From Sphingomonas sanguinis (GTDB lineage: Bacteria; Pseudomonadota; Alphaproteobacteria; Sphingomonadales; Sphingomonadaceae), in the NCBI RefSeq assembly GCF_019297835.1, contig NZ_CP079203.1, positions 124,001-188,000 of the forward strand: a DNA stretch of 64,000 nt, read 5' to 3'. This document shows positions 20,155-64,000 of the stretch, in pieces (the stretch's first letter is position 1; every line of letters begins with the position of its first letter). A program made the translations under genes and the position numbers. A model generated the notes under the pieces. It made no database searches. It had not been told where the DNA came from and saw only the letters and a program-made list of their open reading frames with translations.

Positions 20155-20160
20155 GCGGGC

Positions 20161-37910: not shown

Positions 37911-37966
37911 GCATTCCTCCATGGGAGAGTTGGAAGAAGGCCCCCTTATGACCAGCACTTTTCATC

Positions 37967-38385: not shown

Positions 38386-38386
38386 T

Positions 38387-38420: not shown

Positions 38421-41168
38421 ATGATAGGTTGGAGCCGCAGGGCATTCCTGATGTCGAGTTCGGCCGCTTTAGTCATGCCTGTGCGGAACGCGGCCGCAGC
38501 ACCACTCGCGAAGGCGGTGCGCGAAACGACAGGACTGATCGGGAGCGCGACCTGGCTCGACAGCGCACCGCCGGAGCATCATGAAGGTGTAACCTGGGGG
38601 CAGCCCTGGCCGCGCGGTACGCATATGGCGCGTGACTATCGGCTGGCAGCGGGGGAGGCGCTCCAGAGTTGGCCCCTAGCATGGTGGCCGGACGGGTCGA
38701 TCAAATGGACCGGCCACGCGGTGCCAGCCGATGCGGCGCGGGCTGAAGGACTGCGTGTCGAAGCCGGGCGGGGGCGCGGATCGGCGAGCATGGTGCAGGT
38801 CAGCGAAACGCCCGATGCGCTGACCGTCATCGTCGGCGACACCATTTGGACGGTCGGGCGGCAGGGCTCGGCGATCATTCGTCAGGCGACGACGGGCGGG
38901 ACCGTCGTGATGCGCAACGTCGCGTTGACCGCTACGGCGCTCGACCGGTCGGAGGATGACGGCGAGGACCCGGCGCGGTTGCTCCGCTATGCAGGGCAGA
39001 TCGAGCGCGCGGTGGCCGAACAGAGCGGGCCGATCCGTGCCGTGATCCGCCTTGAGGGACGGCATCAGGGTGAAGGCGAGCAATGGCTGCCTTTTTCTCT
39101 ACGCCTTTATTTTCATGCCGGGGCGGCATCGGTGCGGATCGTCCACAGCCTGATCTTCGACGGCGATCCCGCACGCCGGTTCGTCCGGGGGCTGGGCCTG
39201 CAAGGCGATGTGCCGATGCGCGATGCATTGGTCGATCGGCATGTCCGCTTCGCCGGACAGGACGGGGGGCTATGGGCGGAGGCGGTCCGGCCGCTGACCG
39301 GGCTGCGGCGCGATCCGGGCAAGGCGTTTCGGCAGGCGCAGACCGAGGGGCGGGCCGTTCCGCCCGTCGCGACCATGGCGCCCGCCGTGCGCGACAAGCT
39401 TGATTATATTCCAGCCTGGGGCGATTTCCGCCTGCGCCAGCCTAATGCCGACGGCTTTGCGATCATCAAGCGGACCGGATCGGGGCATGGCTGGATCGAT
39501 GTGGATGGAGGCGCACGGGCGGCTGGCCTCGGCTATATCGGTGGAGCGGGGGGCGGAGTCGCCTTTGCCATGCACGATTTCTGGCAGCGCTGTCCGGTCG
39601 GGCTGGACGTGACGGGTGCGACGGGCGACACGGCGCGCTTCTGCCTGTGGTATCATGCGCCCGACGCCCCGGCGATGGACCTGCGCTTCTATCACGACAC
39701 GATGGGTATGGCCGACTATGCCCATCAGAATCTCGGCCTCGACATCACCTATGAGGATTATGAGCCGGGTTGGGGGGAGGCGACCGGGATCGCCCGGACG
39801 ACCGAGTTCCGGCTCTGGGCGCTGCCCGCCACGCCGTCGCGCGAACGGCTGGTCCAGATGGCGGCCCAGGTCGCCACACCCCCGCGCATAGTGCCCACCA
39901 ATGCCGCCATCCATGCCGCCGGAGTCTTCGGCATCTGGGACCGGGCGGGTCCCGTCGGGCCGGATCTGCGTGGTATGGTCGAGGCGCGGGCGGCGCGTGA
40001 GCTGGATTTCTACATCGGGCAGGTCGATCAGCGACGCTGGTACGGGTTCTGGAATTACGGCGACGTCATGCACAGCTATGACGACGACCGCCATGTCTGG
40101 CGCTACGACATTGGCGGCTTCGCCTGGGACAATAGCGAACTGTCGACCGATCTCTGGCTCTGGTACGCCTATCTGCGCACCGGCCGTGCGGACGTGTTCC
40201 GCATGGCGGAGGCGATGACCCGGCATACGAGCGAGGTCGACGTCTATCACCTGGGCCGTTTCAAGGGATTTGGCACGCGCCACGGCGTGCAGCATTGGGG
40301 GGACAGCTCGAAACAGCCGCGCATCTCCAATGCCGCGTTCAAGCGCATCTTCTATTACATATCCGCCGACGAGCGTTGCGGCGACCTGATGCACGCATTG
40401 GTCGATTGCGACCAGACGCTGCGCCATGTCGAGATCGGTCGCAAGGTCGAGGCGCGCGTGGGCGGTGCCGCGCCGCCCGGCGGAACGGGCGCGGTCGTCG
40501 CGGACAAGCCGTTGCCGCCGGGGCAGGTCTTCGTCCAGTTCGGCACGGTTTGGGGGCCGCTGGTCGCCGCATGGATGACCGAGTGGGAGCGCACCCGCGA
40601 CACACGCTGGCGCGACCGGATCGTGGCGGGGATGCAGTCGCTGGCCGCCTTGCCCAAACAATGGTTCGCGGGCGGGGCGCCCTTCGACCTCGCGTCCGGG
40701 CGCTTTATCGGCGGCGGAGACCATGTGAGCATGAGCCATCTGAACGGCGTGTTCGGGGTGTTCGAGACCATGGCTGAGCTACTCGAACTGGTCGATGTGC
40801 CCGCCTATCGCGAAGCCTGGCTCGACTATTGCGCCTTCTACAATGCGCCCGAGGCGGCGTTCCGCGCAAAGACGGGCGAGCCGGGCAAGGGGCGGGGGCT
40901 GACCCAGGCGCATTCGCGCTACACCGCCTATGCTGCCGTCCAGCGGCACGATCCGGTCCTCGCCCGTCGCGCCTGGGCCGAGTTCACCGGCGTGGGCGAC
41001 CGAGCTGGACGCGACCAGCGGCGGGGCGTAACGAAAATCCTGCCGCCTGCGGTGTTGAAGCCCGTCGATGAACTGGCCGATGTCTCGACAAACGATGCCG
41101 CGCAATGGGGGCTGGCGGCGACCGCCAATCTGGTGCTGCTGGCACCCTTGCTGGAGGGGAGCGTGTGA
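38421..41168 (+). CDS. PL26-type exo-rhamnogalacturonan lyase (PcRGLX/YetA-like), Tat-exported
   Basis: A 915-residue protein. The start is ATG 38421, seven bases after GGAGG; a GTG at 38415 is too close. The N terminus SRRAFLMSSSAALVMP is a twin-arginine signal. The body matches the PcRGLX/YetA-like family: VTWGQPWPRGTHMARDYRLA in the N-terminal beta-domain, and RRWYGFWNYGDVMHSYDDDR, WRYDIGGFAWDNSELSTDLW and HHTS..VDVYHLG-like segments of the (alpha/alpha)6 barrel. Family members remove unsaturated galacturonosyl-rhamnose units from rhamnogalacturonan-I ends. Its stop overlaps the next gene's GTG, so they are co-translated. Confidence 0.82.
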   Translation: MIGWSRRAFLMSSSAALVMPVRNAAAAPLAKAVRETTGLIGSATWLDSAPPEHHEGVTWGQPWPRGTHMARDYRLAAGEALQSWPLAWWPDGSIKWTGHAVPADAARAEGLRVEAGRGRGSASMVQVSETPDALTVIVGDTIWTVGRQGSAIIRQATTGGTVVMRNVALTATALDRSEDDGEDPARLLRYAGQIERAVAEQSGPIRAVIRLEGRHQGEGEQWLPFSLRLYFHAGAASVRIVHSLIFDGDPARRFVRGLGLQGDVPMRDALVDRHVRFAGQDGGLWAEAVRPLTGLRRDPGKAFRQAQTEGRAVPPVATMAPAVRDKLDYIPAWGDFRLRQPNADGFAIIKRTGSGHGWIDVDGGARAAGLGYIGGAGGGVAFAMHDFWQRCPVGLDVTGATGDTARFCLWYHAPDAPAMDLRFYHDTMGMADYAHQNLGLDITYEDYEPGWGEATGIARTTEFRLWALPATPSRERLVQMAAQVATPPRIVPTNAAIHAAGVFGIWDRAGPVGPDLRGMVEARAARELDFYIGQVDQRRWYGFWNYGDVMHSYDDDRHVWRYDIGGFAWDNSELSTDLWLWYAYLRTGRADVFRMAEAMTRHTSEVDVYHLGRFKGFGTRHGVQHWGDSSKQPRISNAAFKRIFYYISADERCGDLMHALVDCDQTLRHVEIGRKVEARVGGAAPPGGTGAVVADKPLPPGQVFVQFGTVWGPLVAAWMTEWERTRDTRWRDRIVAGMQSLAALPKQWFAGGAPFDLASGRFIGGGDHVSMSHLNGVFGVFETMAELLELVDVPAYREAWLDYCAFYNAPEAAFRAKTGEPGKGRGLTQAHSRYTAYAAVQRHDPVLARRAWAEFTGVGDRAGRDQRRGVTKILPPAVLKPVDELADVSTNDAAQWGLAATANLVLLAPLLEGSV

Positions 41169-41833
41169 TCCATCCCCTGTTCGCACTGGCCGCGGTGGCG
41201 GCACCCGTGGCTTTGCAGGCGGATGGATTCCGGGGCAACGACCTTTCCCGCTGGCGGATCGAGGCGGAGCCGGGGGCACGGATTTCCGCTCGAAACGGCA
41301 TCCTCGATATCGATGCCGTGGACGGTGTGACCCTATGGTACGCCCGCGCGCTGACCGGACCGGTGGCGATCGACTATGAGGTGATGGCGGTGCAGGCCGG
41401 TGGGCCACATGACGCGGTCAGTGACGTCAATGCCTTCTGGATGGCGCGTGACCCGGCGGTATCCGGCGGCTCGGTTCTGGCGCGCCCGCGCGATGGGCGT
41501 TTTGCCAGCTATGATGGGCTGGAAACCTATTATGTCGGGATCGGCGGCAACCGAAACACGACCACCCGTATGCGCCGCTATGTCGGACGGGCAGGGGACC
41601 GGCCTTTGCTGCCCGAACATGATCTTGGCGACAGGACGGCGATGCTGGTGCCCAATCGCTGGATGCATATCCGGCTGATCGCGAACGGAAACGATATCGC
41701 GGTCGAGCGCGATGGGCGGCGGTTGTTCACGATGCAGGACGCTGCACCCTACCGCCAGGGCTGGTTCGGCCTGCGCACGACGCGGAGCCATTTGCGGGTG
41801 CGACATATGCGGATCACCCCGCTGCCCCGATAA
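41165..41833 (+). CDS. DUF6250-type exported protein coupled to the PL26 gene
   Basis: A 222-residue protein starting at GTG 41165 inside the PL26 stop (GTGA). A short hydrophobic N terminus (HPLFALAAVAAPVALQADG) looks like a signal peptide. The rest is a jelly-roll-like beta domain: DLSRWRIEAEPGARISARNG, DVNAFWMARDPAVSGGS, ETYYVGIGGNRNTTTRMRRY, PNRWMHIRLIANGNDIAVER and GWFGLRTTRSHLRVRHMRI. This fits the DUF6250/YesU-like concanavalin-type family linked to rhamnogalacturonan loci. Activity is unknown; a lyase or carbohydrate-binding role is possible. Confidence 0.75.
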   Translation: MIHPLFALAAVAAPVALQADGFRGNDLSRWRIEAEPGARISARNGILDIDAVDGVTLWYARALTGPVAIDYEVMAVQAGGPHDAVSDVNAFWMARDPAVSGGSVLARPRDGRFASYDGLETYYVGIGGNRNTTTRMRRYVGRAGDRPLLPEHDLGDRTAMLVPNRWMHIRLIANGNDIAVERDGRRLFTMQDAAPYRQGWFGLRTTRSHLRVRHMRITPLPR

Positions 41834-41839
41834 CGAAGG

Positions 41840-41867
41840 ATGGCCGGATCGTCGTTGATCCGGCCAT
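41840..41867. terminator. Hairpin between convergent DUF6250 and TonB-receptor genes
   Basis: ATGGCCGGATC (41840-41850) and GATCCGGCCAT (41857-41867) form a perfect 11-bp stem with a 6-base loop. It sits in the 41-base gap between two convergent genes and can serve both. Confidence 0.75.
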
Positions 41868-41874
41868 TCCCATC

Positions 41875-44800
41875 TTAGAATTTCAGGCTGAGCCCAGCAA
41901 AGAAACGCTGGCCCGGGTAGAAGACTTCGGACGTTCCGATATTCTTGATATAGGTACGGCCAAATTCCTTGTTGATGTTCTGCATTTCCATGAACAGGCT
42001 GTAATGCCATTGCGGGAAGCGGAACGTCACCTTGGCGTCGAGATAGCCTTCGCCCTTGCGATAGATGGGCAAGTTGCCGTTGTTCGCATCGGCCACCGTC
42101 TGCAACCAGTCTGATCGGAAGTTATAGGCCAGGCGGGCATTCAACCATCCCTTGTCGTAGAAGATGCTGGCGTTCCACGTCCACTTCGACAAGCCGGGAT
42201 AATCGCTCAGCGGCTGACCGGTTGCGACATTGGTCAGATTGGTGCGCAGTGCACGGGCATAGGTCATGTTCGCGCTAGCACCCAATCCGTCGAACGGAGC
42301 GGGCAGGAAGGTGAAAGCGGTCTGCGCGCTCGCCTCGATCCCGTCGAGCAGTGCGCCAAAACCGTTTACCGGCTGTCGCACGGTATAGGTTACGCCGTCC
42401 TGGAACAGGTCGACGCCCGAGCGTACGATGTTTTCGATGACGAAGCTGTTCTCATACTTCTTGTAATAGCCCAGGCTGACCAGCGTGTCCTTGTTGGGAT
42501 ACCAGGCAAGGTTCACCTCCCACTGATCGGCGCGGTAAGGTTGCAGCGCCGGGTTGCCAGCGGAACAGACACTGTCCGCGGCGGCGATGGTCAGATCGTC
42601 GAGGCAGTTGATGTTGGGGACGAGATTGGTCGGCTTGGGCCGAGCCATGTTCTTGGCCCAGTTGCCCTGCAGAACGAGGTTGGGCGTGATCGCCAGCTGA
42701 AGGTTGAAGGTGGGCAGGATGTCGACATAATTATTGTCGAGCGACAGCTGCTGCGCACCGAGCACCACGGTTTCGGTCCGACCTGCCGCGTTCAGGCGTG
42801 TCTGGCGACGGATATTGGTCCCGGTTCCGACATCCTTGGTAAAGATATAGCGGACACCGGCATTGCCGGTCAGGCGCATGCCGAACACTTGCTGTTCGAA
42901 ATTGCCCTGGACGTAGCCCGCCGCGATCGTCTCATTGATCTTCACCTGCGGGATTTGCGGCAAGCCGTTGGCCTGGCGCACGAGTGACTGGTTGAAGCCC
43001 GACAGGTCATAGAATTGCCCAAGGGTCTTCGGATCGAAATTGGCAAAGGCCAGGCGGGTCGGGATGGAGGACGGAATGCCTTGAATGCCCGTGAACATCG
43101 GCGCGCCACCGGTCGTCGTACCCAGCGCGCTGATGAGGTTCGCATATTCGTTGCGCGTCAGGAAATAGGTGTTGCCGATCGAGCGCTGCGGCACTGTCGC
43201 CGCATCGACGATCTGGGTGTTGTACGACACGTTCGCGCTCGTCTGATAAACGGCGGGCGTCGAACCCGACGCGGGCGTCAGCAAGCGGGAGCCGCCGCCC
43301 TGATAGGTGTAATAGTCCGCCCAGCGGAACTGGCCGCCGAAATCGATGCTCCGCAGCGGCCCCAGATCGGTGTCGTAGGTCCCGTCCAGTTTCAGCTGGT
43401 TCTCGCTATTGCCCTGATCGCTCGGACGATACTGGACGGTCGGGCCTGCGGGCATGACGTTTCCGGTCCGCGTGTAGTCGGTATAGATGCTCGGATCGGC
43501 AGGGTTGACGTTGCTGGGATAGATAAAGACTGGCACGCCTAGGTCGTTGTTGCGATCGACCTGCATGCCGGCGATGCCGGTGCTGAGCGAAATCAGGTTG
43601 GTGTTGCCGATCGTGCGCGACTCACTGCGCGAGGCGAGCCCCTTCAAGCGCAGGCGATCGACGATCCATTCGAAACCGGTGATGTAGTAACGCGACTTCT
43701 GGTTGTACTGAAAGTCGCGGCGCTGAACTCCCAAAATGTTGGACGAGCCGTTATAATTCGGTACGGCCGCGGTGCCGATGTTCACCGAGTTGAGTGCCGT
43801 CGTATAGCTGGTGACGACATGATTGGCATCGACGGTCGATGTGCCGTTCTGAATGACCGCCGTGTTCGGCGCCGCCAATTGGTAACGCTGGATGCGGCCC
43901 ATATCGAGCGAATAGTTTACATCCTGGAGTCGTTGGTCGCGGTTGTTCCATTGCACTTCGGCATAAGCGCGAAAGTTGTGCGCGAATTCATACTGCGCCG
44001 TGATGTCGCCGGACAGGCGCTTGTCGCGACGCACGAGGTTGCGATAGCGCGGTACGGTCGGAGCCCAATCGTAGAACTGGCTTTCGCAGGCGGTACGACG
44101 CGTCGCCGCGCTCTGGTTGGCCGTCGCGCCGACGCCAGCGCAGCTGGCAAAGCTGTTGAACGCGGAATAGTTCGGATCGGCGACCGTCTTTTCGTTCGAA
44201 CGGTCGAAGTCGGCGATGCGGCTCCAGTTCGTGTTGCTGGCATAATCCTGTCGCGTGGTCACGTCGCTGTAGGTGATATTGGCCAGGACGCCGAGACCGT
44301 CGATGAGGAAATGGGGCGTACCCACCAGCAGCGTCGCACGGGGGCGCCAATCCTTGGTCGTTTCCAGATGCTGGCCGGACAGATTGACCGTCGCCACCCC
44401 CTTTTTCAGCTCCAACGGCTTGCGCGTCTCGATCAGGACGGTGCCGCCCAAGCCGCCTTCGGTCAGCTTGGCCTGATAGCCCTTGTAGACGTCGATCGAC
44501 TTGACGAGTTCGGAGGCGAATTCGCGGAAGTCGCCCGCGCGGGCTCCCAGCGCCGAGGACTGGCCGACGCCGTTGATTTCGACACGGTTGAGATCGGGCT
44601 CGACACCACGGATCGAAATCTGATTGCCTTCGCCGAATTCGCGGCTGAGCTGCACGCCGGTGACGCGGGCCAGGCTGTCGCCGATATTCTTGTCGGGGAA
44701 GCTGGCGATATCGTCGGCGACGATCGAGTCGACCACGGTCCCCGCATTGCGCTTGCGTGCGATGGCGGATTGCAGCGAGGCGCGCGTACCGACGACGATG

Positions 44801-45018
44801 ATGTCGCCGGCGCTCGCGCCGCCCAGCGAGTCGGACGACTGGCTGCTCGTTCCGCTATTGTCGCTCTGCCCGTTTGCTTGGGCATTCTGCGCAAAGGCCG
44901 GAGTGCCCAGCGCCAGCCCGGCGGCCAGGACGCCCCAGGCCGATGTCCGCAACATGCCGCGCAGGAATGGCCGACCATGGACCTGATGCGATCCGCTGAT
45001 GGCGACGAAACCGTTCAT
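41875..45018 (-). CDS. TonB-dependent receptor, Caulobacter type, for pectic oligosaccharides
   Basis: A 1047-residue receptor. The start at 45018 (MNGFVAISGSHQVHGR) has GGGAGGACACC upstream; the frame to 45123 is not needed. Signal segment LRTSAWGVLAAGLALGTPAFA. The plug has GTVVDSIVADDIASFPDKNI, GDSLARVTGVQLSREFGEGN and ISIRGVEPDLNRVEING, typical of the large Caulobacter/Xanthomonas-type receptors. The barrel ends in YPGQRFFAGLSLKF. It diverges from the PL11 gene and converges on PL26-DUF6250, so it most likely imports rhamnogalacturonan fragments. Confidence 0.92.
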   Translation of the reverse strand: MNGFVAISGSHQVHGRPFLRGMLRTSAWGVLAAGLALGTPAFAQNAQANGQSDNSGTSSQSSDSLGGASAGDIIVVGTRASLQSAIARKRNAGTVVDSIVADDIASFPDKNIGDSLARVTGVQLSREFGEGNQISIRGVEPDLNRVEINGVGQSSALGARAGDFREFASELVKSIDVYKGYQAKLTEGGLGGTVLIETRKPLELKKGVATVNLSGQHLETTKDWRPRATLLVGTPHFLIDGLGVLANITYSDVTTRQDYASNTNWSRIADFDRSNEKTVADPNYSAFNSFASCAGVGATANQSAATRRTACESQFYDWAPTVPRYRNLVRRDKRLSGDITAQYEFAHNFRAYAEVQWNNRDQRLQDVNYSLDMGRIQRYQLAAPNTAVIQNGTSTVDANHVVTSYTTALNSVNIGTAAVPNYNGSSNILGVQRRDFQYNQKSRYYITGFEWIVDRLRLKGLASRSESRTIGNTNLISLSTGIAGMQVDRNNDLGVPVFIYPSNVNPADPSIYTDYTRTGNVMPAGPTVQYRPSDQGNSENQLKLDGTYDTDLGPLRSIDFGGQFRWADYYTYQGGGSRLLTPASGSTPAVYQTSANVSYNTQIVDAATVPQRSIGNTYFLTRNEYANLISALGTTTGGAPMFTGIQGIPSSIPTRLAFANFDPKTLGQFYDLSGFNQSLVRQANGLPQIPQVKINETIAAGYVQGNFEQQVFGMRLTGNAGVRYIFTKDVGTGTNIRRQTRLNAAGRTETVVLGAQQLSLDNNYVDILPTFNLQLAITPNLVLQGNWAKNMARPKPTNLVPNINCLDDLTIAAADSVCSAGNPALQPYRADQWEVNLAWYPNKDTLVSLGYYKKYENSFVIENIVRSGVDLFQDGVTYTVRQPVNGFGALLDGIEASAQTAFTFLPAPFDGLGASANMTYARALRTNLTNVATGQPLSDYPGLSKWTWNASIFYDKGWLNARLAYNFRSDWLQTVADANNGNLPIYRKGEGYLDAKVTFRFPQWHYSLFMEMQNINKEFGRTYIKNIGTSEVFYPGQRFFAGLSLKF

Positions 45019-45223
45019 GGTGTCCTCCCTCTCGCCCCGGTGCCGCCGATGTGTCTCGGCTGACGGTTCTGGGGCCCCCTTACCGTATAAAAGACTTGTA
45101 TATGACCACAATGTGGAATGCAATCATATAGATTGGAATTTTCTTCGGTGTCGCTATCCTTGAGTCCATGGTCGAAATGGCGTGGCAAGCGACCGGAAAG
45201 ACAGCGTTTTAGGAGGATGACGG

Positions 45224-47167
45224 ATGAGGAAGAGGATGGGACAGGCGCTGCGCGGCGGTATCGCGTCATGGGTTGCGATCGCTGCTGCGCTTCCCCTGAT
45301 GGCGATGCCCCCCGATGAGAACCGGCAGGTCGAAAGGCTGGATCGGGGCGTCGTCGCGGTTCCGGCCATGGGTGGCGGCGTCCTGATCAGCTGGCGGTCG
45401 CTGGCGGCCGATGTGAAGGGGATAGGCTTTGACGTCTATCGAGATGGTCGAAAGATCACGGCGCATCCCATCATCGATTCGACCAATTTCAGGGACACGG
45501 CAGGCACGTCGGCCAGTCGCTATGCGGTGCGCATGATCGCACCTGGTGCTGCTGGCTCACTCACCCCCGACGCGCCGGTCTGGGCGAAGGGCTATCTGAC
45601 CATCCCGCTCGATCCGCCGCCGGGTGGAGTCACCCCCGATGGCGAAGCCTATAGCTATACCGCCAATGATGTGGGGATGGGCGATCTGGATGGTGACGGG
45701 CAGCCGGATCTAGTGCTGAAATGGGACCCCACCAACAGCCATGACAACAGCCAGGCAGGCTATACGGGGCCGGTCTATCTCGACGGCTATACGTTGGCCG
45801 GCAAGAGACTGTGGCGGATCAATCTGGGCATCAATATTCGCGCTGGTGCGCATTACACCCAGTTCCTGGTGCAGGATTTCGACGGGGACGGTCGCGCCGA
45901 GGTGGCGATGAAGACTGCCGACGGCACGATCGATGGTACGGGGCAGGTGATCGGTGACGCGAAGGCCGACTGGCGCGAACATGGCGGCGAGGTGCCGCAG
46001 GGCGACAGGACCGGGGCGCATGTCACCGCCGATGGGCGGATGGTCGCCAAGCTCGCTGGGCGTATCCTGACCGGGCCGGAATATCTGACGGTATTCGACG
46101 GGCTGACGGGCCGCGCGCTGGCGACCGCGCCCTATGATCCGCCGCGCGGGCCGCGCCACGATCCCGGCTTTGCGCAGATGGCGAAGCTGTGGGGCGATGC
46201 CTATGGCAACCGGGTCGACCGGTTCCTGGCCGGGGTTGCCTATCTCGACGGGCGGCACCCGAGCATGATCTTCGGGCGGGGCTATTATGCCCGCACCGCG
46301 ATCGCCGCCTGGGACTATCGGAACGGCAAGCTGACCGAGCGCTGGCTGTTCGACACCGACCAGCCGGGCAATCAGGACTATGCCGATCGCGGCAATCACC
46401 AGTTGAGCATTGCCGATGTGAACGGCGATGGGCGTGACGAGGTGATCTATGGCTCGATGGCGGTCAGCGCCGATGGCAAGGGGCTATGGACGCAGCCGCT
46501 CTATCACGGCGATGCGATGCATGTCGGCGACCTCGACCCGACCCGGCCCGGACTGGAGAAATTCGGCGTGCACGAACAGATCGCGCATAATGGCGGGATC
46601 GGCTCGGCGCTGCTCGACGCGCGGACCGGCGAAATTCTGTGGACCAAGGCCGCCAAGACGGACACGGGCCGCGGCCTTAGCGCCGATATCGACCCGCGTC
46701 ATGTCGGCGAGGAGATGTGGGGCGCGAACCAGCCCGACCTTTACGACGTGCACGGCAAGGCCATCGGGCCGCATCCCAGGCAGACCAATTTCGCTATCTG
46801 GTGGGACGGCGATCTGCTTCGCGAGCTGCTCGACGGCACGACCATCTCCAAATGGAACTGGAAGACGGGCAAGGCCGAGCCGCTGCTGGTCGCGGAAGGT
46901 GCGGCGTCGAACAACGGCACCAAGGCGACGCCAGCGCTGCAAGCCGACCTGATCGGCGACTGGCGCGAGGAGGTGGTGTGGCGCAGCGCGGACAATCGCG
47001 AGTTGCACATCTATACCACGCCGTGGCCGACGACGCATCGGATCACGACGCTGTTGCAGGACCCGGTCTACCGTGCGGGCATCGCGTGGCAGAACACGGC
47101 CTATAACCAGCCGCCGCATACGGGTTTCTACCTGGGCATGACCAAGCCGTCCGATCAGGCGGAGTGA
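45224..47167 (+). CDS. Rhamnogalacturonan lyase, PL11 (YesW/YesX-like), secreted
   Basis: A 647-residue protein with a signal peptide (ALRGGIASWVAIAAALPLMA) after AGGAGG at 45211. The N-terminal Ig-like part (DRGVVAVPAMGGGVLISWR) leads into the eight-bladed propeller with calcium-binding repeats: DVGMGDLDGDGQPDLVLKWD, LVQDFDGDGRAEVAMKTADG, IADVNGDGRDEVIYGSM, and LIGDWREEVVWRS. The family cleaves the rhamnose-galacturonate backbone of rhamnogalacturonan-I by beta-elimination. Length and motif order are normal for PL11 and all blades are present. It is alone on its strand, ended by a strong hairpin. Confidence 0.95.
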   Translation: MRKRMGQALRGGIASWVAIAAALPLMAMPPDENRQVERLDRGVVAVPAMGGGVLISWRSLAADVKGIGFDVYRDGRKITAHPIIDSTNFRDTAGTSASRYAVRMIAPGAAGSLTPDAPVWAKGYLTIPLDPPPGGVTPDGEAYSYTANDVGMGDLDGDGQPDLVLKWDPTNSHDNSQAGYTGPVYLDGYTLAGKRLWRINLGINIRAGAHYTQFLVQDFDGDGRAEVAMKTADGTIDGTGQVIGDAKADWREHGGEVPQGDRTGAHVTADGRMVAKLAGRILTGPEYLTVFDGLTGRALATAPYDPPRGPRHDPGFAQMAKLWGDAYGNRVDRFLAGVAYLDGRHPSMIFGRGYYARTAIAAWDYRNGKLTERWLFDTDQPGNQDYADRGNHQLSIADVNGDGRDEVIYGSMAVSADGKGLWTQPLYHGDAMHVGDLDPTRPGLEKFGVHEQIAHNGGIGSALLDARTGEILWTKAAKTDTGRGLSADIDPRHVGEEMWGANQPDLYDVHGKAIGPHPRQTNFAIWWDGDLLRELLDGTTISKWNWKTGKAEPLLVAEGAASNNGTKATPALQADLIGDWREEVVWRSADNRELHIYTTPWPTTHRITTLLQDPVYRAGIAWQNTAYNQPPHTGFYLGMTKPSDQAE

Positions 47168-47175
47168 GGGCGACG

Positions 47176-47205
47176 ACGTAACCCGGTCAAAGGACCGGGT
47201 TACGT
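47176..47205. terminator. Perfect bidirectional hairpin overlapping the GPH-transporter stop
   Basis: ACGTAACCCGGTC (47176-47188) and GACCGGGTTACGT (47193-47205) make a 13-bp stem with a 4-base loop. It begins 9 bases after the PL11 stop and includes the last five codons and stop of the convergent MFS gene. Confidence 0.75.
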
Positions 47206-49801: not shown

Positions 49802-49820
49802 GGGAAACGTCTCCGAAGGA

Positions 49821-54051: not shown

Positions 54052-54053
54052 GA

Positions 54054-56092: not shown

Positions 56093-56197
56093 GCACCCGC
56101 TCCCTTGTCATGCCTTGCGAACCTGTCTGGTCCGCTTTCCCGAACTATGCGCATCAATCCCACATAGTGCAAGACAAGTTTGGTATCTGGAATGAAT

Positions 56198-57001: not shown

Positions 57002-57113
57002 CGGAAAGGCTCTCCAATCGCGCCGCAGTGTCTGCGTGCGCGTACCATATTGTGGAAGTGTCTGCCCGGGCAGGGCGCTACTGTCGAGAGCAAAGCGCGG
57101 TGATCGGTCGCGG

Positions 57114-58589
57114 TTACGGCCAGAATGGGGTATTCCGTGCGTTTGCCCGCGATACCTGGTCGAGGATGATCGCTGCACGCGCGTCCGGGCCGTCATGTGA
57201 CAGTGACAGCCCATCGACCGTCAGCCCCTGGACGTGCTGCGCCCACAGCCCCCAGGCGGGCAGGGTGCCGAACATGCTCGGTTCGGGATAGGCGTGGGGA
57301 CATTCCTCCGGCATCCGTGCCGAGTCCTCCATCGTGCCACCACCACGATAATGGAGGCTCACCCGCGCGAGCGTCACGTCACGAATCGGATGGCGTTGCA
57401 GTCCAGCGATGATGAACGGATAGCGATGATCTATGCCGGTCGCGTGGATGTCGGTCAGGGTGATGCCGCGCAGCGCCCCGACGCCCAGACCCGCCGGTCC
57501 GCGCCCGCGATCGCCCAGCCGCAGGAAAGCCGGGGCGCTGGTGACGTCGTTCATGGCCAGCCGCCGCGCGGTCACTCCCTCCATGATGCCGCCATCGACC
57601 ACCTCCAGCGCCAGCCCCCGGCTGCGGTCAAATCGGCAATCCTCGATCAATATGTCGCGAAAGCCGCCATTGCTCTCGGTTCCGATCTTGATCCGGCCGG
57701 TGGGACCGTCCCGGTCGGGCGCGAACCGTTGCGTCGTGCCGAACCGTCCGTCCAGCATCGTGCCGCGGTCATAGCCCGATACGGCGCAGTCGCGGATGAC
57801 AATATTCTCGACATCGATGGGGTGGCCCATGGCGAGGCTGCTCTTGACGACGATGGCGTCGTCATTGGGCGTATTGACCCTGCAGCGCGTGACCATGGCA
57901 TGGGATACGCCGTCCAGGTCGATGCCGTCGCGCTCGCTGTCGATGGTCAGCCGGTCGATGGCGACGCGGGTACAGCCGGTCAGCAGGACCGCGATATGCC
58001 CGCCGCGATCGATAGTCAGGTCGTGCAGCGTCACGCCGTGACAATCGCGCAGGGCGATCGCCTTGTTGCCCAGCCCGCGCATGGCCTCGACGTCCGGTTC
58101 CAGCGCGGCGAGGGCGGCGGCGCTCATGTCGCGCATCGATAGCGGCCTTTCGCCCCGTTGCGCACGCCAGCGCGATCCCGGGCCGTTGCGGGTCAGGCCG
58201 CATCCCTCGATCCGCCCCCGCCCGGCAATGGCGATGTCGTGCAGCCCGTCGCCCCAGATCAGGCTGTTATGCCAATGGCTGTGCCCGAAATCCTGATAAA
58301 GTTGGTCTCCGCGCGGTTCGGGATCGTCATAACGTCCGGCATGGCGCGCCGGATCGGCCGCCTCGATCACCGCGCCTTCGGCCAGCCATAGCGCGACCTC
58401 GCTCGCCAGTCGGATCGAGAAGCAAAGGTAACGCCCGGCGGGCAGCATCACCGTCCCGCCGCCCCGGCCCGCGACATGGGCGATGGCGCGGTTGATCGCG
58501 GCGTGGTCCAGCGTCTGCCCATCGCCTCGCGCGCCCGCCTCGCGCGCGTTCAGCCATTGCCGGGCATGGACCGGCGCGGCGAAGCGCAT
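57114..58589 (-). CDS. GH28-family glycosidase (polygalacturonase/rhamnogalacturonase-like)
   Basis: A 491-residue right-handed beta-helix enzyme starting at 58589 (MRFAAPVHARQWLNAREAGA). GGGTVMLPAGRYLCFSIRL is the classic GH28 N-terminal motif. ERDGIDLDG, NTPNDDAIVVKSS (catalytic Asp pair region) and GRIKIGTESNGG (the RIK motif) follow. No signal peptide is visible, which is unusual and suggests a cytoplasmic exo-enzyme working on imported oligomers. It begins two bases after the PL22-like gene's stop. Confidence 0.88.
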   Translation of the reverse strand: MRFAAPVHARQWLNAREAGARGDGQTLDHAAINRAIAHVAGRGGGTVMLPAGRYLCFSIRLASEVALWLAEGAVIEAADPARHAGRYDDPEPRGDQLYQDFGHSHWHNSLIWGDGLHDIAIAGRGRIEGCGLTRNGPGSRWRAQRGERPLSMRDMSAAALAALEPDVEAMRGLGNKAIALRDCHGVTLHDLTIDRGGHIAVLLTGCTRVAIDRLTIDSERDGIDLDGVSHAMVTRCRVNTPNDDAIVVKSSLAMGHPIDVENIVIRDCAVSGYDRGTMLDGRFGTTQRFAPDRDGPTGRIKIGTESNGGFRDILIEDCRFDRSRGLALEVVDGGIMEGVTARRLAMNDVTSAPAFLRLGDRGRGPAGLGVGALRGITLTDIHATGIDHRYPFIIAGLQRHPIRDVTLARVSLHYRGGGTMEDSARMPEECPHAYPEPSMFGTLPAWGLWAQHVQGLTVDGLSLSHDGPDARAAIILDQVSRANARNTPFWP

Positions 58590-58591
58590 GG

Positions 58592-59908
58592 TCAGGGCCG
58601 TGCCTTGGCAACCTCGACCGCATAGACCTGCTGCCCGCCCTGCATGTTGGAGCGGAAAACCAGCCATTTGCCGTCCGGCGTGAAGTTGGCATTGGGCTCC
58701 AGCCGGTAATCCTGGGCTTTCATATTGACGAGCTTTTCCGCCTCGAAAACGCCCGGCTGGATCAGCGTATCGGCATCGGGCGCGCGGATACCCGCCACAT
58801 CGGGGACGGCGCGCGGGCGGAACAGATAGAGCCATTTGCCGTCGGGCGCATGCGCGACCATCTCGCGGTCGCCGCCATCGCCGGAGAAGAGCTTGCCGTC
58901 GGGCGAACTGTTGAAATGCACCGACCATTCGTTGCGGTCGAGATGATATTGGGTGCGCTTGCCGGTCGCGACGTCATAACCCGCCACCCAGAAATCCTCG
59001 CCGCGCGGCGTTTGCAGATCATACCAGATGGTTCGTCCGTCATGGGAGAACCACTCATGCCCGGCGATCTCCATGTTCATCGTGCGGGTATGGATCTTGC
59101 GCGGGGCATCGCCCGGCCGGTTGATCCGCATCAGCCAGAGCCGGTCGACCTTGTGCCAGGGTCCTTCGTGACAGAACATCAGCAGCGCCGGGTCGGTCGG
59201 CGAGAATTGCAGATGGTTGAGCCAGTCGGTCGCGCGGTGGACGATGCGCTTTGCTCCGGTCCGGGTGTCGATGACGAACATCGCCATCGGCACGCGCGCC
59301 TCGAGCCGCTCGTTCATCCGCACTTCCTTCGCCTCGGCATAGGTCAGCGGCTTGCCGTCCGGGCCAGTCGCCCGGTAATTGGCCTGGTCGTAGCGGGCGT
59401 CCTTCTTGGCGAAGAGCGCGAGCGTGTCGGACGAGGCATGGGGATCGGTCTCGACACCGCCCAACAGCGTTTCGTCGGCGTTGATCGTCTGGATGTCGCC
59501 ATGGTCGATGGCGACGACCTTGCGGACCTTGCCGCTGTCGATATCGGCGGCCCAGATGATCTTGGCACCCTGTCCGTCCGCGCTTTGTGTCTGGTAATAG
59601 ACGGTTGGCGTCCGGTGGCCGGTGAAGAGCAGGCGGAACGGCCCCGTGATCGGCACCACCGTCTTCAGCGCGCGGGTCTTCAGGTCGACGGAGGCGATGC
59701 CCTTGGGCGTCGAGATCAGCAGCTTGTCGCCCTGCGGCGTATAGCCGTTGAAGTTGAAATAGAGGCTGGCGCTGCCCGGCTCGTCCGACAGCCGGACGAT
59801 GCGGTGGCCGGTATCGGGATCGACCCATTCGCGCGGTGGCGTGGTGTCCGCCGCCAGCGCGACGGACGGTCCGGCCAGCGCCAGCAGCAGGGCAGCCCCC
59901 ATCCTCAT
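58592..59908 (-). CDS. PL22-like oligogalacturonate lyase-type propeller protein, exported
   Basis: A 438-residue protein starting at 59908 (MRMGAALLLALAGPSVALAA), overlapping the dehydrogenase stop by 4 bases. WVDPDTGHRIVRLSDEPGSA, LYFNFNGYTPQGDKLLIST and MFVIDTRTGAKRIVHRATDW, then HLQFSPTDPALLMFCHEGPW, EIAGHEWFSHDGRTIWYDLQ and LEPNANFTPDGKWLVFRSNM match the oligogalacturonate lyase (PL22) seven-bladed propeller. The usual Ogl enzymes are cytoplasmic; this one has a signal peptide, so it probably acts in the periplasm. Confidence 0.88.
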   Translation of the reverse strand: MRMGAALLLALAGPSVALAADTTPPREWVDPDTGHRIVRLSDEPGSASLYFNFNGYTPQGDKLLISTPKGIASVDLKTRALKTVVPITGPFRLLFTGHRTPTVYYQTQSADGQGAKIIWAADIDSGKVRKVVAIDHGDIQTINADETLLGGVETDPHASSDTLALFAKKDARYDQANYRATGPDGKPLTYAEAKEVRMNERLEARVPMAMFVIDTRTGAKRIVHRATDWLNHLQFSPTDPALLMFCHEGPWHKVDRLWLMRINRPGDAPRKIHTRTMNMEIAGHEWFSHDGRTIWYDLQTPRGEDFWVAGYDVATGKRTQYHLDRNEWSVHFNSSPDGKLFSGDGGDREMVAHAPDGKWLYLFRPRAVPDVAGIRAPDADTLIQPGVFEAEKLVNMKAQDYRLEPNANFTPDGKWLVFRSNMQGGQQVYAVEVAKARP

Positions 59909-60669
59909 TGCAGGTTCACATAGGCGCCGCCATCGACCAGCAGCGCCGCGCCGGTCACATAACGCGCCATGTCGGAGGCGAGGAACACGGCCGGTCCCGC
60001 CATATCCTCGGGCACGCCGAGCCGCCCCAGCGGCACGCGGCCCTCCATATATTTGCGCTTGGCCTCGTCGGCCAGATCGTCCTTGTTGATCTCGGTGAGG
60101 ATAGTGCCGGGCAGCAGCGAGTTGCAGCGGATGCCGTGGCGTCCCAGCGCGATCGCGGCCGACTGCATCAACGAATGCAGGCCTGCCTTGGTCGGGGTAT
60201 AATGCGTCTGATACTCGCCGCCGACGAGCGCGGAGATCGAGGAGATGGCGATGATTGACCCGCCATGGCCCTGTTGAACCATCTGCCGCGCCGCCGCCTG
60301 GCACATATAATAGCCGCCATGCAGATTGACCCGCATCGTCCGCTCGAACGTCTCGACCGGCATGTCGAGGAAGCTGTGGAAGGGGCAGATGCCCGCATTC
60401 GACACCATCACATCGACCTTGCCGAACGCATCGGCCGCGCGCGCGATGAAGTCGGTCGCGGTGGCGGGGTCGGCCACATCGCCCTGGATGGCGACCGCGC
60501 GGCGGCCATGCGCCTCGATCCCCGCCACGCACTGGGCGGCGCCGTCCGAATCGCGGGCATAGTTGATCGCGACGTCCGCACCGTGTTCGGCCGCCCCGAT
60601 GGCGATCGCACGACCGATGCCCGTCGAGGCGCCGGTGACGACCACGGTTTTTCCTTCCAGCAGCTTCAC
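59905..60669 (-). CDS. L-rhamnose 1-dehydrogenase (LRA1-type SDR)
   Basis: A 254-residue SDR. The GTG at 60669 has GAGGAG seven bases upstream and is preferred; ATG 60684 (MRSKVVKLLEG) is the alternative. TGASTGIGRAIAI binds the cofactor. SNAGICPFHSFLDMPVE, SSISALVGGEYQTHYTPTKA (catalytic Ser, Tyr, Lys), GTILTEINKDDLADEAKRKY and DMARYVTGAALLVDGGAYVN match characterised L-rhamnose dehydrogenases closely. It oxidises L-rhamnose to L-rhamnono-lactone, the first step of the non-phosphorylated pathway. First gene of the minus-strand operon. Confidence 0.9.
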   Translation of the reverse strand: MKLLEGKTVVVTGASTGIGRAIAIGAAEHGADVAINYARDSDGAAQCVAGIEAHGRRAVAIQGDVADPATATDFIARAADAFGKVDVMVSNAGICPFHSFLDMPVETFERTMRVNLHGGYYMCQAAARQMVQQGHGGSIIAISSISALVGGEYQTHYTPTKAGLHSLMQSAAIALGRHGIRCNSLLPGTILTEINKDDLADEAKRKYMEGRVPLGRLGVPEDMAGPAVFLASDMARYVTGAALLVDGGAYVNLQ

Positions 60670-60764
60670 GACCTTGCTCCTCATCCTGTCCGTCTGCTCA
60701 CTTGGCCGACCGGATTTTACAAAACAACCGATTGACCTTCTGAGTCTCAACAATTAGCATACTA

Positions 60765-60773
60765 TTCCATAAA
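60765..60773. promoter_or_regulatory. ATTCCATAA motif in the divergent rhamnose promoter region
   Basis: The 175-base gap between L-rhamnose dehydrogenase and L-rhamnonate dehydratase holds both promoters and is unusually AT-rich. It has ATTCCATAA at 60765-60773, identical to 38397-38405 before PL26. Related TGGAATG words are at 45114-45120 (before PL11) and 56188-56194 (before CE12). Confidence 0.35.
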
Positions 60774-60844
60774 GTGAGAAAGTAAAGCCGGGAGGATCGG
60801 ATGCGGGGCGGTTGCCAAGAGACGCGGGCCAGCGGGGGCGGGCG

Positions 60845-62032
60845 ATGAGCCTGTCGCGGATCAAGCACGTCCGCGCCTTCGTCGCGCGCGGGGCAGGGGC
60901 CGATTATCACGATCAGGGCGCGGGCCACTGGATCGACGACCACATCGCCACGCCGATGAGCCGCTATCCCGAATATCGCCAGTCGCGGCAAAGCTTCGGC
61001 ATCAACGTGCTGGGCACGCTGGTCGTGGAGATCGAGGCCGAGGACGGCACGATCGGCTTTGCGGTGACGACCGGGGGCGAGCCCGCCGCCTATATCGTCG
61101 AGAAGCATCTCGCCCGGTTCCTCGAAGGACGCTCGCCGGTCGAGGTCGAGAAGATCTGGGACCAGATGTATTTCTCGACCCAATATTATGGCCGCAAGGG
61201 GCTGGTGGTGAACGCGATCTCCGGCGTCGATCTGGCGCTATGGGATCTGCTGGGCAAGCTGCGCGGCGAGCCGGTCTATCACATGCTGGGCGGCGCGGTG
61301 CGCGACGAACTGCAATTCTACGCCACCGGCGCGCGGCCCGATATCGCCAAGGAACTGGGCTTCATCGGAGGCAAGCTGCCGCTGCACCACGGCCCGGCCG
61401 AAGGGCTGGAGGGGATGGAGAAGAACATCGCGCTGCTCGCCGACATGCGCAGCAAATGCGGTGACGATTTCTGGCTGATGTACGACTGCTGGATGGCGCT
61501 CGACCTCGACTACGCGACGCGCCTCGCGCATCGCGCGTGGAACGAATGCGGGCTGAAATGGATCGAGGAGGCGCTGAGCCCCGATGATTACTGGTCCTAT
61601 GCTGAGCTTCGCAAGAAGGCGCCGCCGGGGCTGCTCGTCACCACCGGCGAGCATGAGGCAACCCGCTGGGGCTTCCGCATGCTGATCGACATGGGCTGCT
61701 GCGACATCATCCAGCCCGATGTGGGCTGGTGCGGCGGCGTGACCGAACTGATCAAGATCGCCAACTATGCCGACAGCCGGGGGGTGATGATGATCCCGCA
61801 CGGATCGTCGGTCTATAGCTATCACTTCGTCATCACCCGGCACAATTCGCCCTTTGCCGAATTCCTGATGATGCACCCCGGACCCACCGAGGTCGTGCCG
61901 ATGTTCGCGCCGCAATTGCTGGGCGAACCGGTGCCGCAGAACGGCCGCATCCGCGTCAGCGCGCTCGACAAGCCCGGCTTCGGCGTCGAGCTGAACGCCG
62001 ACGTGCCGCTTCATCGCCCGTATACCCATTGA
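60845..62032 (+). CDS. L-rhamnonate dehydratase (enolase superfamily)
   Basis: A 395-residue enzyme starting at 60845 ([16 protein letters not shown]). The capping domain has [20 protein letters not shown]. The barrel has [31 protein letters not shown] (metal Asp), [13 protein letters not shown] (metal Glu), [12 protein letters not shown] (metal Glu) and [14 protein letters not shown] (catalytic His region). These match the L-rhamnonate dehydratase group. It converts L-rhamnonate to 2-keto-3-deoxy-L-rhamnonate with magnesium. First gene of the plus-strand operon; ten bases separate it from the hydrolase gene. Confidence 0.95.
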
Positions 62033-62042
62033 GGATTTTCCC

Positions 62043-62906
62043 ATGAAACTCTGTCGCTATGGACAAAAGGGCGCGGAAAAGCCCGGTCTGGTCGATGCCG
62101 ATGGCCGCATCCGCGACCTGTCGGACGTAATCGACGACGTCACCTCCGCCACCCTCAGCCCCGAGGCCCTGGACCGCCTCCGCGCCGTCGATCTCGACAC
62201 GCTGCCGCTGGTCGAGGGGAGCCCACGCTACGGCGTGCCCGTCGCTGGCATCGGCAAGTTCATCGCCATCGGGCTCAACTATGCCGATCATGCGGCGGAG
62301 TCCGGGCTGCCGGTGCCGCCCGAGCCCATCTTCTTCACCAAGGCGATTTCGTGCCTGACTGGCCCCAATGATCCGGTGATGATCCCCAAAGACGCCGAAA
62401 AGACCGACTGGGAGGTCGAACTGGGCGTCGTGATCGGCAAGACCTGCCGCTATGTCGAACAGGCCGACGCGCTGGATCATGTCGCAGGCTATGTGCTGGC
62501 CAACGACGTGTCCGAGCGCGCTTTCCAGAAGGAGCTGGGTAGCCAGTGGGACAAGGGCAAGGGCTGCGACACCTTCGGTCCGGTCGGCCCTTGGCTGGTG
62601 ACGGCGGACGAGGTTGGCGACTGCCAGGAACTGGACATGTTCCTCGACGTCAATGGTCGGCGGATGCAGACCGGCAACACCCGGACGATGATCTTCCCGG
62701 TCGCCGAGTGTATCGCCTATGTCAGCCGCTTCATCACCCTGCACCCCGGCGACCTGCTGATCACCGGCACACCACCGGGCGTGGGCGAGGGGCAGAAGCC
62801 CGAAAAGATCTTCCTCAAGGCGGGCGATACCATGCATCTGGGCATCGCCAAGCTGGGCGAACAGCGCCAGACCTGCATTCCCTTCGCCCTGGAACTGCCC
62901 CAGTGA
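62043..62906 (+). CDS. L-2,4-diketo-3-deoxyrhamnonate hydrolase (FAH superfamily, LRA6-type)
   Basis: A 287-residue fumarylacetoacetase-fold enzyme. IGLNYADHAAESGLPVPPEP, IFFTKAISCLTGPND and KTDWEVELGVVIGK (metal-binding Glu residues), VLANDVSERAFQKELGSQWD, GKGCDTFGPVGPW and ITGTPPGVGEGQKP are FAH signatures. In sphingomonads this group cleaves 2,4-diketo-3-deoxy-L-rhamnonate to pyruvate and L-lactate. Its position between rhamnonate dehydratase and the SDR fits exactly. The next gene starts with GTG inside its stop (GTGA). Confidence 0.92.
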   Translation: MKLCRYGQKGAEKPGLVDADGRIRDLSDVIDDVTSATLSPEALDRLRAVDLDTLPLVEGSPRYGVPVAGIGKFIAIGLNYADHAAESGLPVPPEPIFFTKAISCLTGPNDPVMIPKDAEKTDWEVELGVVIGKTCRYVEQADALDHVAGYVLANDVSERAFQKELGSQWDKGKGCDTFGPVGPWLVTADEVGDCQELDMFLDVNGRRMQTGNTRTMIFPVAECIAYVSRFITLHPGDLLITGTPPGVGEGQKPEKIFLKAGDTMHLGIAKLGEQRQTCIPFALELPQ

Positions 62907-63652
62907 CCGTCTTTGGGGGGCGCTTCGCGGGGCGATCCGCGATCGTGACCGGGGCGGCCTCGGGCCTGGGCTGCGAGGTGGCGCGGCGCATCGTCGCAGA
63001 GGGCGGCTCGGTCGCGCTCTGGGATGTCGATAGCGACAAGCTGGCGGCGTCGGCGATCGATGTCGGGGCAACCCATTGGGAAGCGTTCGACGTCGCGGAT
63101 GCCGGTGCCGTCGAACGCGCCACCGCCGCCAGTGTCGCGGCGCTGGGCAAGATCGACGTGCTGATCTGCTCGGCGGGCATCACCGGCGCGACGGCCAGCG
63201 TTCAGGACTATCCGCTCGACAGCTGGCAGCGTGTGGTCGAGATCAACCTGAACGGCGTATTTTATTGCTGTCGTTCGGTGGTGCCGCATCTGCTGGCGAA
63301 TGGCTATGGTCGGATCGTCAACGTCGCCTCGGTCGCGGGCAAGGAGGGTAATCCCAATGCCTCGGCCTATTCGGCAACCAAGGCGGGGGTGATCGGCTTC
63401 ACCAAGAGCCTCGGCAAGGAACTGGCGGGCAAGGGTGTCATCGCCAACGCGATCACGCCCGCGACGTTCGAGAGCCCGATCCTCGCGCAACTGCCGAAGA
63501 GCCAAGTCGATTACATGCGCGGAAAGATCCCGATGGGACGGCTGGGCGAGGTGAGCGAGACGGCGGCGATGGTGTGCTTCATGGCGTCGGAGGAGTGCAG
63601 CTTCACCACCGCGTCGACCTTCGACACATCGGGTGGCCGGACGACCTATTGA
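62903..63652 (+). CDS. 2-keto-3-deoxy-L-rhamnonate 4-dehydrogenase (LRA5-type SDR)
   Basis: A 249-residue SDR started by GTG 62903, overlapping the hydrolase stop. TGAASGLGCEVARRI is the cofactor loop; CSAGITGATASVQDYP, VNVASVAGKEGNPNASAY and SATKAGVIGFTKSLGKEL hold the active site. It oxidises 2-keto-3-deoxy-L-rhamnonate to the 2,4-diketo acid consumed by the preceding hydrolase. Assignment rests on family similarity plus operon position. The stop overlaps the next ATG by one base (TGATG). Confidence 0.88.
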   Translation: MTVFGGRFAGRSAIVTGAASGLGCEVARRIVAEGGSVALWDVDSDKLAASAIDVGATHWEAFDVADAGAVERATAASVAALGKIDVLICSAGITGATASVQDYPLDSWQRVVEINLNGVFYCCRSVVPHLLANGYGRIVNVASVAGKEGNPNASAYSATKAGVIGFTKSLGKELAGKGVIANAITPATFESPILAQLPKSQVDYMRGKIPMGRLGEVSETAAMVCFMASEECSFTTASTFDTSGGRTTY

Positions 63653-64000
63653 TGATCCCGTTCGTCGACGCGCATATTCATCTCTGGGATCTGGGGCGGC
63701 TGCGTTACCCGTGGTTGACCCCGCCCTTCGCCGATGACGGGCCGAACGGATCGGTCGAGGCGATCGCGCGGACCTATCTCCCCGCCGACTACCGGGCGGA
63801 GATGGCGCGGTGGAATGTCGTCGGCGCGGTGCATGTCGATGCGGGCGCGCATCCGGCGGATGCACTGGCCGAAACCGAGTGGCTGGAGGGGCTGGCCGAC
63901 GCACACGGGTTGCCCGATGCCATCGTCGCCTTTGCCGCACTGGACGACCCCGATCTCGATGCGATACTGGCGGCCCATGCCCGGCATCCCCGCGTGCGGG
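63652..64000 (+). CDS. Amidohydrolase-family lactonase (probable L-rhamnono-lactonase), 3' part outside window
   Basis: The first 116 codons of an amidohydrolase_2 protein: PFVDAHIHLWDLGRLRYPWL with the metal-binding His-x-His, then TYLPADYRAEMARWNVVGAV and HVDAGAHPADALAETEWLEG. This is the pattern of L-fucono/L-rhamnono-1,4-lactonases. In the LRA pathway it opens the lactone made by L-rhamnose dehydrogenase. The start at 63652 overlaps the SDR stop, so it belongs to the same operon. The C-terminal half and its remaining metal ligands are beyond the window. Confidence 0.85.
   Translation, partial: MIPFVDAHIHLWDLGRLRYPWLTPPFADDGPNGSVEAIARTYLPADYRAEMARWNVVGAVHVDAGAHPADALAETEWLEGLADAHGLPDAIVAFAALDDPDLDAILAAHARHPRVR

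Follow-up and report, generated by a model that had tools for sequence, protein, structure and literature searches.

Sets of PL11, GH105 and CE12 enzymes for the breakdown of rhamnogalacturonan I (RG-I) are found in the Sus-type polysaccharide utilisation loci of Bacteroidota and in the yes/yte cluster of Bacillus subtilis, and KdgR, a regulator of the IclR family, is tied to pectin and 2-keto-3-deoxygluconate (KDG). How is the cutting of the polymer coordinated with the oxidation of its sugars? In Aspergillus niger, RhaR is reported to control RG-I genes together with the rhamnose genes of the LRA pathway, and its likely inducer is given as 2-keto-3-deoxy-L-rhamnonate (L-KDR) (PMC5674754). 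The rhamnose regulator RhaS of Erwinia is described as also driving rhiTN, for the uptake and splitting of unsaturated rhamnogalacturonides (PMC3870299), and RhcR is reported as a regulator of haloarchaeal rhamnose catabolism (PMC11519228). Given these three precedents, the regulatory logic is already known. The diketo-hydrolase (LRA) pathway for L-rhamnose is likewise known from Sphingomonas (PMC3870299, PMC6336799). Here we describe a locus of Sphingomonas sanguinis in which RG-I degradation genes and LRA genes lie together at 38421-64000 of a 64,000-nucleotide stretch (the window, on whose scale positions are given). The window covers bases 124001-188000 on a contig of 4.28 Mb; the genome consists of two contigs and is rated 100% complete.

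We read this region as an alphaproteobacterial RG-I utilisation locus joined to the LRA pathway and to kduI-kduD, probably forming one regulon under an IclR-family regulator, and assign this a probability of roughly 0.7. A preliminary description of the window had proposed that a single route, governed by the IclR gene, converts RG-I into pyruvate and lactate; judged from sequence, this appears to be the best reading, and it is backed by the adjoining kduI-kduD genes, by the linkage of the regulator to LRA6 (23 of 24 genomes) and by a shared palindrome. Like the Sus-type loci and the yes/yte cluster, the locus holds PL11, GH105 and CE12-type genes, and its DUF6250 protein has a predicted YesU-like fold; unlike them, it has a TonB receptor standing alone, it includes monosaccharide catabolism, and its rhamnose route is non-phosphorylated. 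With KdgR the regulator shares its family and an association with sugar-acid catabolism. RhcR, described for rhamnose catabolism, is also of the IclR type (PMC11519228); the ligand and operator proposed below are predictions. The pathway of Sphingomonas sp. SKA58 (Watanabe and Makino 2009), as related in PMC6336799 and PMC3870299, has LRA1, LRA3 and LRA6 in common with the locus at equivalog level; the operon described here adds kduI-kduD and is interspersed with RG-I enzyme genes, SKA58 being compared by pathway. As reported for A. niger RhaR, a single regulator is predicted to govern RG-I enzymes and LRA catabolism; unlike the present system, RhaR is fungal and comes with an aldolase (LRA4) branch, where LRA5 and LRA6 are found here (PMC5674754). 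The Erwinia RhaS regulon differs in its AraC-type regulator and its phosphorylated rhamnose pathway, as described in PMC3870299. Among the matches listed in the literature searched (title and abstract start), the coupling of RG-I and LRA genes in sphingomonads was undescribed, nor did the searches turn up a bacterial IclR regulon that spans RG-I, Kdu and LRA genes.

Which steps of rhamnose oxidation are encoded? The core of the LRA pathway is represented by three proteins that pass their NCBIfam equivalog cut-offs (bits/cut-off): LRA1 L-rhamnose 1-dehydrogenase (59905-60684, minus strand; NF053807, 456.9/400), LRA3 L-rhamnonate dehydratase (60845-62032, plus; NF011968, 748.4/393) and LRA6 2,4-diketo-3-deoxy-L-rhamnonate hydrolase (62043-62906, plus; NF053535, 539.3/500). 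The L-rhamnose mutarotase RhaM (52769-53086, minus; PF05336) also passes, narrowly (TIGR02625, 100.3/99.6), as do KduI and KduD. In the PDB, a solved L-2,4-diketo-3-deoxyrhamnonate hydrolase (8gsr, 415.4 bits) aligns with LRA6 almost from end to end, LRA3 matches 2oz3 at 726.6 bits and L-rhamnonate dehydratase entries at about 548 bits, and the structural relative of LRA1, 7b81, is deposited as a generic short-chain dehydrogenase/reductase (SDR). Five LRA-type enzymes had been listed in the preliminary description, and the other two stay under any cut-off: the SDR in LRA5 position (62903-63652, plus; PF13561) has no equivalog over cut-off among its 25 best matches, and the amidohydrolase in LRA2 position (63652-64554, plus, cut by the window edge at 64000; PF04909) has as its sole NCBIfam match L-fuconolactonase, far under cut-off (113.9/400). 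By family and conserved position, they are probably the KDR 4-dehydrogenase and the lactonase, respectively. A second LRA6-like hydrolase elsewhere in the genome (G000:C1:3783642-3784478; 408.2 bits, below cut-off) perhaps serves another deoxy sugar or pentose.

The locus extends about 2.2 kb past the window edge, where the LRA operon ends with kduI (64595-65437, plus; NF002091, 378.6/250) and kduD (65434-66198, plus; TIGR01832, 398.5/338.85). The two genes overlap at their junction, and a gap of 40 bases separates kduI from the amidohydrolase gene. With this pair, the locus has enzymes for each half of the unsaturated disaccharide expected from the action of the lyases and GH105. Neither this pair nor the DUF6250 gene (41165-41833, plus) had been part of the earlier inventory.

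PL11, PL26, CE12-like and GH105 proteins together make up an RG-I set. The PL26 rhamnogalacturonan lyase, of the PcRGLX type (38421-41168, plus), matches all three PcRGLX domains in order (PF19501, PF21345, PF21346) and has a Tat-like signal by eye; its nearest relatives among the matches listed, which may omit records of the source genome itself or very near it, are 94% identical to it and come from Sphingomonas sp. Leaf21 and S. sanguinis. The PL11 rhamnogalacturonan lyase (45224-47167, plus) matches both the RGL11_C and the RGI_lyase domain (PF21348, PF18370). They are accompanied by a GH105/GH88-type unsaturated galacturonyl hydrolase in which no signal peptide was seen by eye (48689-49801, minus; PF07470, 330.9 bits), a GH35 beta-galactosidase (49821-52772, minus; PF01301, 285.5 bits) and a GH28-type beta-helix hydrolase with weak Pfam matches (57114-58589, minus; PF12708, 36.8 bits; PF13229, 26.6 bits). 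Every enzyme class of the preliminary description is present in its place by Pfam or NCBIfam profiles. The three esterases are there as described, a BD-FAE-type alpha/beta esterase (53083-54051, minus; PF20434, 65.1 bits) and two CE12-like GDSL esterases; the CE12 label is backed by a match to the rhamnogalacturonan acetylesterase 1deo (E 6.4e-10) for one of these (55277-56092, minus; PF13472, 62.3 bits) and by the GDSL profile only for the other (54054-55289, minus; PF13472, 57.0 bits).

Uptake would involve a TonB-dependent receptor (41875-45018, minus, start uncertain; PF00593, PF07715) and a GPH-type cation symporter (47187-48689, minus; PF13347, 182.5 bits; TIGR00792 below cut-off at 130.5/231.35), the probable importer of the unsaturated disaccharide. 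Neither a SusD-family member nor the SusC/SusD pair of a Sus-type locus was found among the open reading frames scanned, which were not all of those present.

Is RG-I the substrate? The locus might instead target another rhamnose-uronate polymer, such as a bacterial exopolysaccharide or gum, for which enzymes of RG-I families would have been co-opted; sphingomonads are reported to make rhamnose-containing polymers such as gellan (PMC7953866), and arabinanase, galactanase and alpha-rhamnosidase families were not found among the locus reading frames scanned. We regard this as quite improbable. The presence of all four members of the RG-I set argues against it, and KduI and KduD, which fit unsaturated uronates in general, were counted on the same side. 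The RG-I locus had also been called complete, a claim that was rejected: all 13 GH43 matches in the genome, as side-chain enzymes, lie outside the locus, no GH106 was found in the genome (GH78 was not searched for), and Eda is encoded elsewhere (C1:816435).

The regulator (56198-57001, minus) has both IclR domains over cut-off, N-terminal PF09339 and C-terminal PF01614. Its PDB relatives include the KdgR entries 1ysp and 5y6i, and the best score is that of 1mkm. In a sample of 40 genomes, 39 chosen for holding PL26 plus the source genome, a close relative (at least 280 bits) occurs in 24 and lies at most 10 kb from LRA6 in 23 of these. Most relatives have the IclR gene adjoining LRA3 in divergent orientation and LRA1 on its far side. 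The window's clade has LRA1 adjoining LRA3 and IclR after it; in those members that resemble S. sanguinis, LRA1 and IclR are separated by the genes for GH28 and the PL22-like protein. In 11 Novosphingobium-type genomes (including Croceicoccus), the best match is a more distant IclR protein of about 40% identity, encoded at most 30 kb from a PL26 gene in 8 of the 11.

How widespread is the joining of the two gene sets? PL26 was found in 5 of 147 genomes drawn from the order, and PL11 in the same five. A strong LRA6 lies near PL26 in two of them (G132 and the source genome, G000); the distance is 278 kb in G039 and 126 kb in G062, and the genes are on separate contigs in G125. For the 40-genome sample, the tally was restricted to the 27 genomes with an LRA6 of at least 450 bits, and PL26 and LRA6 lie within 30 kb of each other in 16 of these; at the curated cut-off of 500 bits the count is 11 of 20, five of the 16 linked cases (G163, G166, G169, G170, G176) being under that cut-off. 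Among the 16 are the source genome and other Sphingomonas, as well as Hephaestia, Croceicoccus, Brevundimonas and two assemblies from Caulobacterales. In the nine genomes titled Novosphingobium, LRA6 matches stay below 450 bits (best 443). In draft assemblies, separate contigs are compatible with linkage near contig ends (G152, G177). The tblastn gene maps dropped matches under 40% query coverage, and the gene-order map dropped SDR matches under 45% identity. With such counts, the joint encoding is less unusual than had been suggested, and the idea of an arrangement unique to this genome was rejected. One record with the locus order of S. aquatilis is titled Arthrobacter sp. TPD3018 (QDFQ01000002.1); because of that order the title is probably wrong, and the record was counted with the alphaproteobacteria.

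Do the two halves share a control site? Words shared around CATAAAGTGAGAAAG were found in the LRA3 upstream regions of relatives. A mechanical palindrome search of these regions gave nothing consistent, and the motif emerged only through the shared words and a position weight matrix. An 18-base matrix was trained on the LRA3 promoters of 21 relatives, excluding the window's clade, with the window's own LRA3 site as seed, and was used to scan the window plus 15 kb (79 kb). Its four best distinct sites precede LRA3/LRA1, PL26, IclR and the first esterase gene (CE12a); in ten triplet shuffles its maxima were 11.4-15.6. The seed, TTCCATAAAGTGAGA, lies in the divergent LRA1/LRA3 promoter (60765-60779), scores 27.9 with the 18-base matrix and 20.1 with a symmetric 15-base matrix, and starts five bases after TAGCAT, itself 17 bases from TTGACC. 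The palindrome TCTCATATTTTGAAT stands 43 bp before PL26 (38378-38392; 18.7 with 15 bases, 20.5 with 18 bases at 38375) and overlaps a TATTTT -10 box 17 bases from TTGACG; both arrangements look promoter-like by eye. A palindrome before IclR (57043-57057; 18.3 with either matrix) recurs before IclR in relatives. Lower scores are obtained before CE12a (56158-56172; 13.9 with 15 bases, 15.9 with 18 bases at 56155) and for a weak palindrome, GACCACAATGTGGAA, in the intergenic region of the TonB receptor and PL11 genes (45104-45118; 10.0).

The support for the palindrome is its recurrence across genomes and not single sites. Before PL26, the 18-base matrix scores at least 14 in 15 of 34 alphaproteobacterial loci (permuted means sum to about 0.6) and in none of 46 outside the class. 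The symmetric matrix, in a survey that counted identical upstream stretches once and kept close relatives, which are not independent, finds a site of at least 13 upstream of the PL26 gene in 18 of 36 alphaproteobacterial loci, where 100 permuted matrices gave a mean of 1.27 and a maximum of 9, and in 0 of 46 others. At the same threshold it finds sites before PL11 in 7 of 18 loci (permuted mean 0.81, maximum 7) and before the TonB receptor in 5 of 18 (0.67, maximum 7). Mean scores before these three genes in alphaproteobacteria were reached by none of the 100 permutations. Sites were also found before RhaM (6 of 22) and the PL22-like gene (7 of 18), both of which are internal here and can lead an operon elsewhere. 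The regions upstream of GH105, GH35, GPH, GH28 and DUF6250 show no enrichment, their means being reached by 21 to 47 of 100 permutations. Some other alphaproteobacteria give high scores in the TonB receptor/PL11 intergenic region, and the CE12a site scores 13.9-15.6 in six close relatives of the window (L111-L116). The recurrence of the palindrome before LRA, IclR and PL26 genes favours one regulon.

Besides the two LRA steps under cut-off, several observations weigh against the single-regulon reading. With the symmetric matrix, 40 Markov sequences of equal length reach a maximum of 18.4, and 79 kb hold 6 sites of at least 10, no more than chance would give (mean 5.85). The PL26 (18.7) and IclR (18.3) sites are near that maximum, so that they carry weight only when position and recurrence are taken into account; the CE12a and TonB receptor/PL11 sites fall within chance alone, and a site inside the TonB receptor gene scores 13.6. 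The PL11 count is equalled, and the TonB receptor count beaten, by some permutation, and of the 7 of 26 CE12a regions with a score of at least 13, six are from close relatives of the window. Upstream of RhaM outside the alphaproteobacteria, the mean beats all permutations though no site reaches 13. The motif is absent from the PL26 promoters of Asticcacaulis (2.5-6.4) and from those of G176 (-1.5) and G178 (-5.3), where PL26 and LRA genes are linked. Finally, a strict pattern composed after viewing the window's sites, and one base off at the PL26 site, gave 93 strand matches in 11 other genomes, many of them off these loci, against 13 for the reversed control. The source genome has 5 strand matches to it, which fall on four distinct sites, three in the locus (reversed control 2); since the pattern was fitted to the window's sites, recovering three of them is not independent. 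Two strict matches also lie in another RG-I locus, that of a different Sphingomonas genome (G062:C2:462001-502000; L141, L142), which has two PL11 genes and KduD and is more than 100 kb from the LRA operon of that genome.

Could the two halves merely be neighbours, with IclR governing the LRA genes, the RG-I genes under another regulator, and the palindrome an AT-rich promoter feature? The chance-level site number, the weak CE12a and TonB receptor/PL11 sites and the PL26 promoters that lack the motif all suit this view, and the regulator stays with the LRA genes even where PL26 does not: among the 23 genomes with linked IclR and LRA6, seven (G171, G172, G173, G174, G177, G179, G184) have PL26 on another draft contig or 211 kb away. 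Yet the PL26 sites are seldom picked up by column-permuted matrices; in two Caulobacter records (L033, L035) with PL26 and LRA6 on different contigs the motif still precedes PL26, at 18.2 each; and it does so in 4 of the 11 Novosphingobium-type loci, which, Croceicoccus excepted, have no strong LRA6 nearby. Mere neighbourhood is therefore held to be unlikely, and the single regulon is preferred.

How might such a regulon work? RG-I pieces would pass the TonB receptor, and PL26 and PL11, with the esterases, GH35, GH28 and the PL22-like protein, would cut RG-I to an unsaturated galacturonate-rhamnose disaccharide. This would be imported by the GPH symporter and split in the cytoplasm by GH105. 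The galacturonate half would be turned by KduI and KduD into KDG, which would pass on to Eda, and the rhamnose half would yield pyruvate and L-lactate by way of LRA1, LRA2, LRA3, LRA5 and LRA6. Bound at palindromes overlapping the -10 box or the start site, the IclR protein would repress transcription, and it would release the DNA when 2-keto-3-deoxyrhamnonate, or its analogue KDG, accumulates. It most likely acts as a repressor, ligand and sign of control being proposed from the pathway and from the placement of the sites. The haloarchaeal RhcR, of the same type, is described as an activator (PMC11519228), and an activating role is conceivable here too, if rather doubtful: palindromes on the -10 box or just past it, as placed by eye, fit repression better than activation.

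More tentatively, the IclR protein might be a 2-keto-3-deoxyrhamnonate sensor, a counterpart of RhaR, that unites RG-I depolymerisation, kduI-kduD and rhamnose oxidation in Sphingomonadales and Caulobacterales, with DUF6250 and the PL22-like protein, its metal site rebuilt, filling undiscovered roles in RG-I degradation. If so, one metabolite switch would couple the cutting of the RG-I backbone to the oxidation of both its sugars in alphaproteobacteria. The predicted 15-bp operator would give direct access to the regulon, and the two proteins would be concrete targets for new RG-I activities. The parts are known; the shared control site, which seems to connect them, is the newer, testable element. 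In kind, the system extends the known pectin loci and LRA pathway.

The PL22-like beta-propeller (58592-59908, minus) appears to be a divergent member of its kind. It matches PF14583 at 55.4 bits (cut-off 30; profile positions 169-383 of 386), and its predicted model (pLDDT 83.9) has 3c5m and 3pe7 as nearest structures, which agrees in profile and fold with the PL22-like lyase proposed earlier. The histidine-rich site of 3pe7, an entry titled as a manganese complex, is not preserved: two histidines of its HPH motif, which we take to be metal ligands, are replaced by E404 and N406, invariant in all 18 aligned sequences (window included), while H331 is retained. It is because of these replacements that the protein is filed as PL22-like rather than PL22.

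For the DUF6250 protein, a concanavalin fold resembling that of B. subtilis YesU is predicted, with 15% identity in the structural alignment. By sequence, a profile of 34 members did not retrieve YesU (1oq1) at E 5, and no meaningful match was found in the PDB; the word DUF6250 returned no paper in the literature searched. The gene occurs beside PL26 in several phyla, and in B. subtilis yesU is reported to adjoin rhgT (PMC6120924).

Two divergent operons with overlapping genes had been proposed. Stop and start codons do overlap at many junctions of the long minus-strand operon and of the LRA operon on the plus strand; the gene order, however, implies at least four transcription starts. PL26 and DUF6250 form one unit on the plus strand, the TonB receptor gene (minus) is divergent from PL11 (plus), LRA1 (minus) is divergent from LRA3 (plus), and the IclR gene is flanked on each side by gaps of about 100 bases. 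No known RNA family reached its gathering score in 34000-64000.

Insertion-sequence genes flank the locus on both sides: an IS110-type transposase gene lies to its left (32349-33356), and a degraded-looking IS5-like transposase reading, judged by eye, directly follows kduD (L002:7200-8060). Beyond the latter is a sulfatase gene, preceded by that of its formylglycine-generating enzyme and followed by one for a further TonB receptor (L002:8260-10943), and upstream of PL26 a phytase-like esterase gene is found with its own TonB receptor (34189-37958, minus); both groups are outside the locus as counted here. Further to the left, at 19246-21354, a tyrosine integrase gene is immediately followed by that of an IS91-type Y2 transposase, as a tandem mobile pair.

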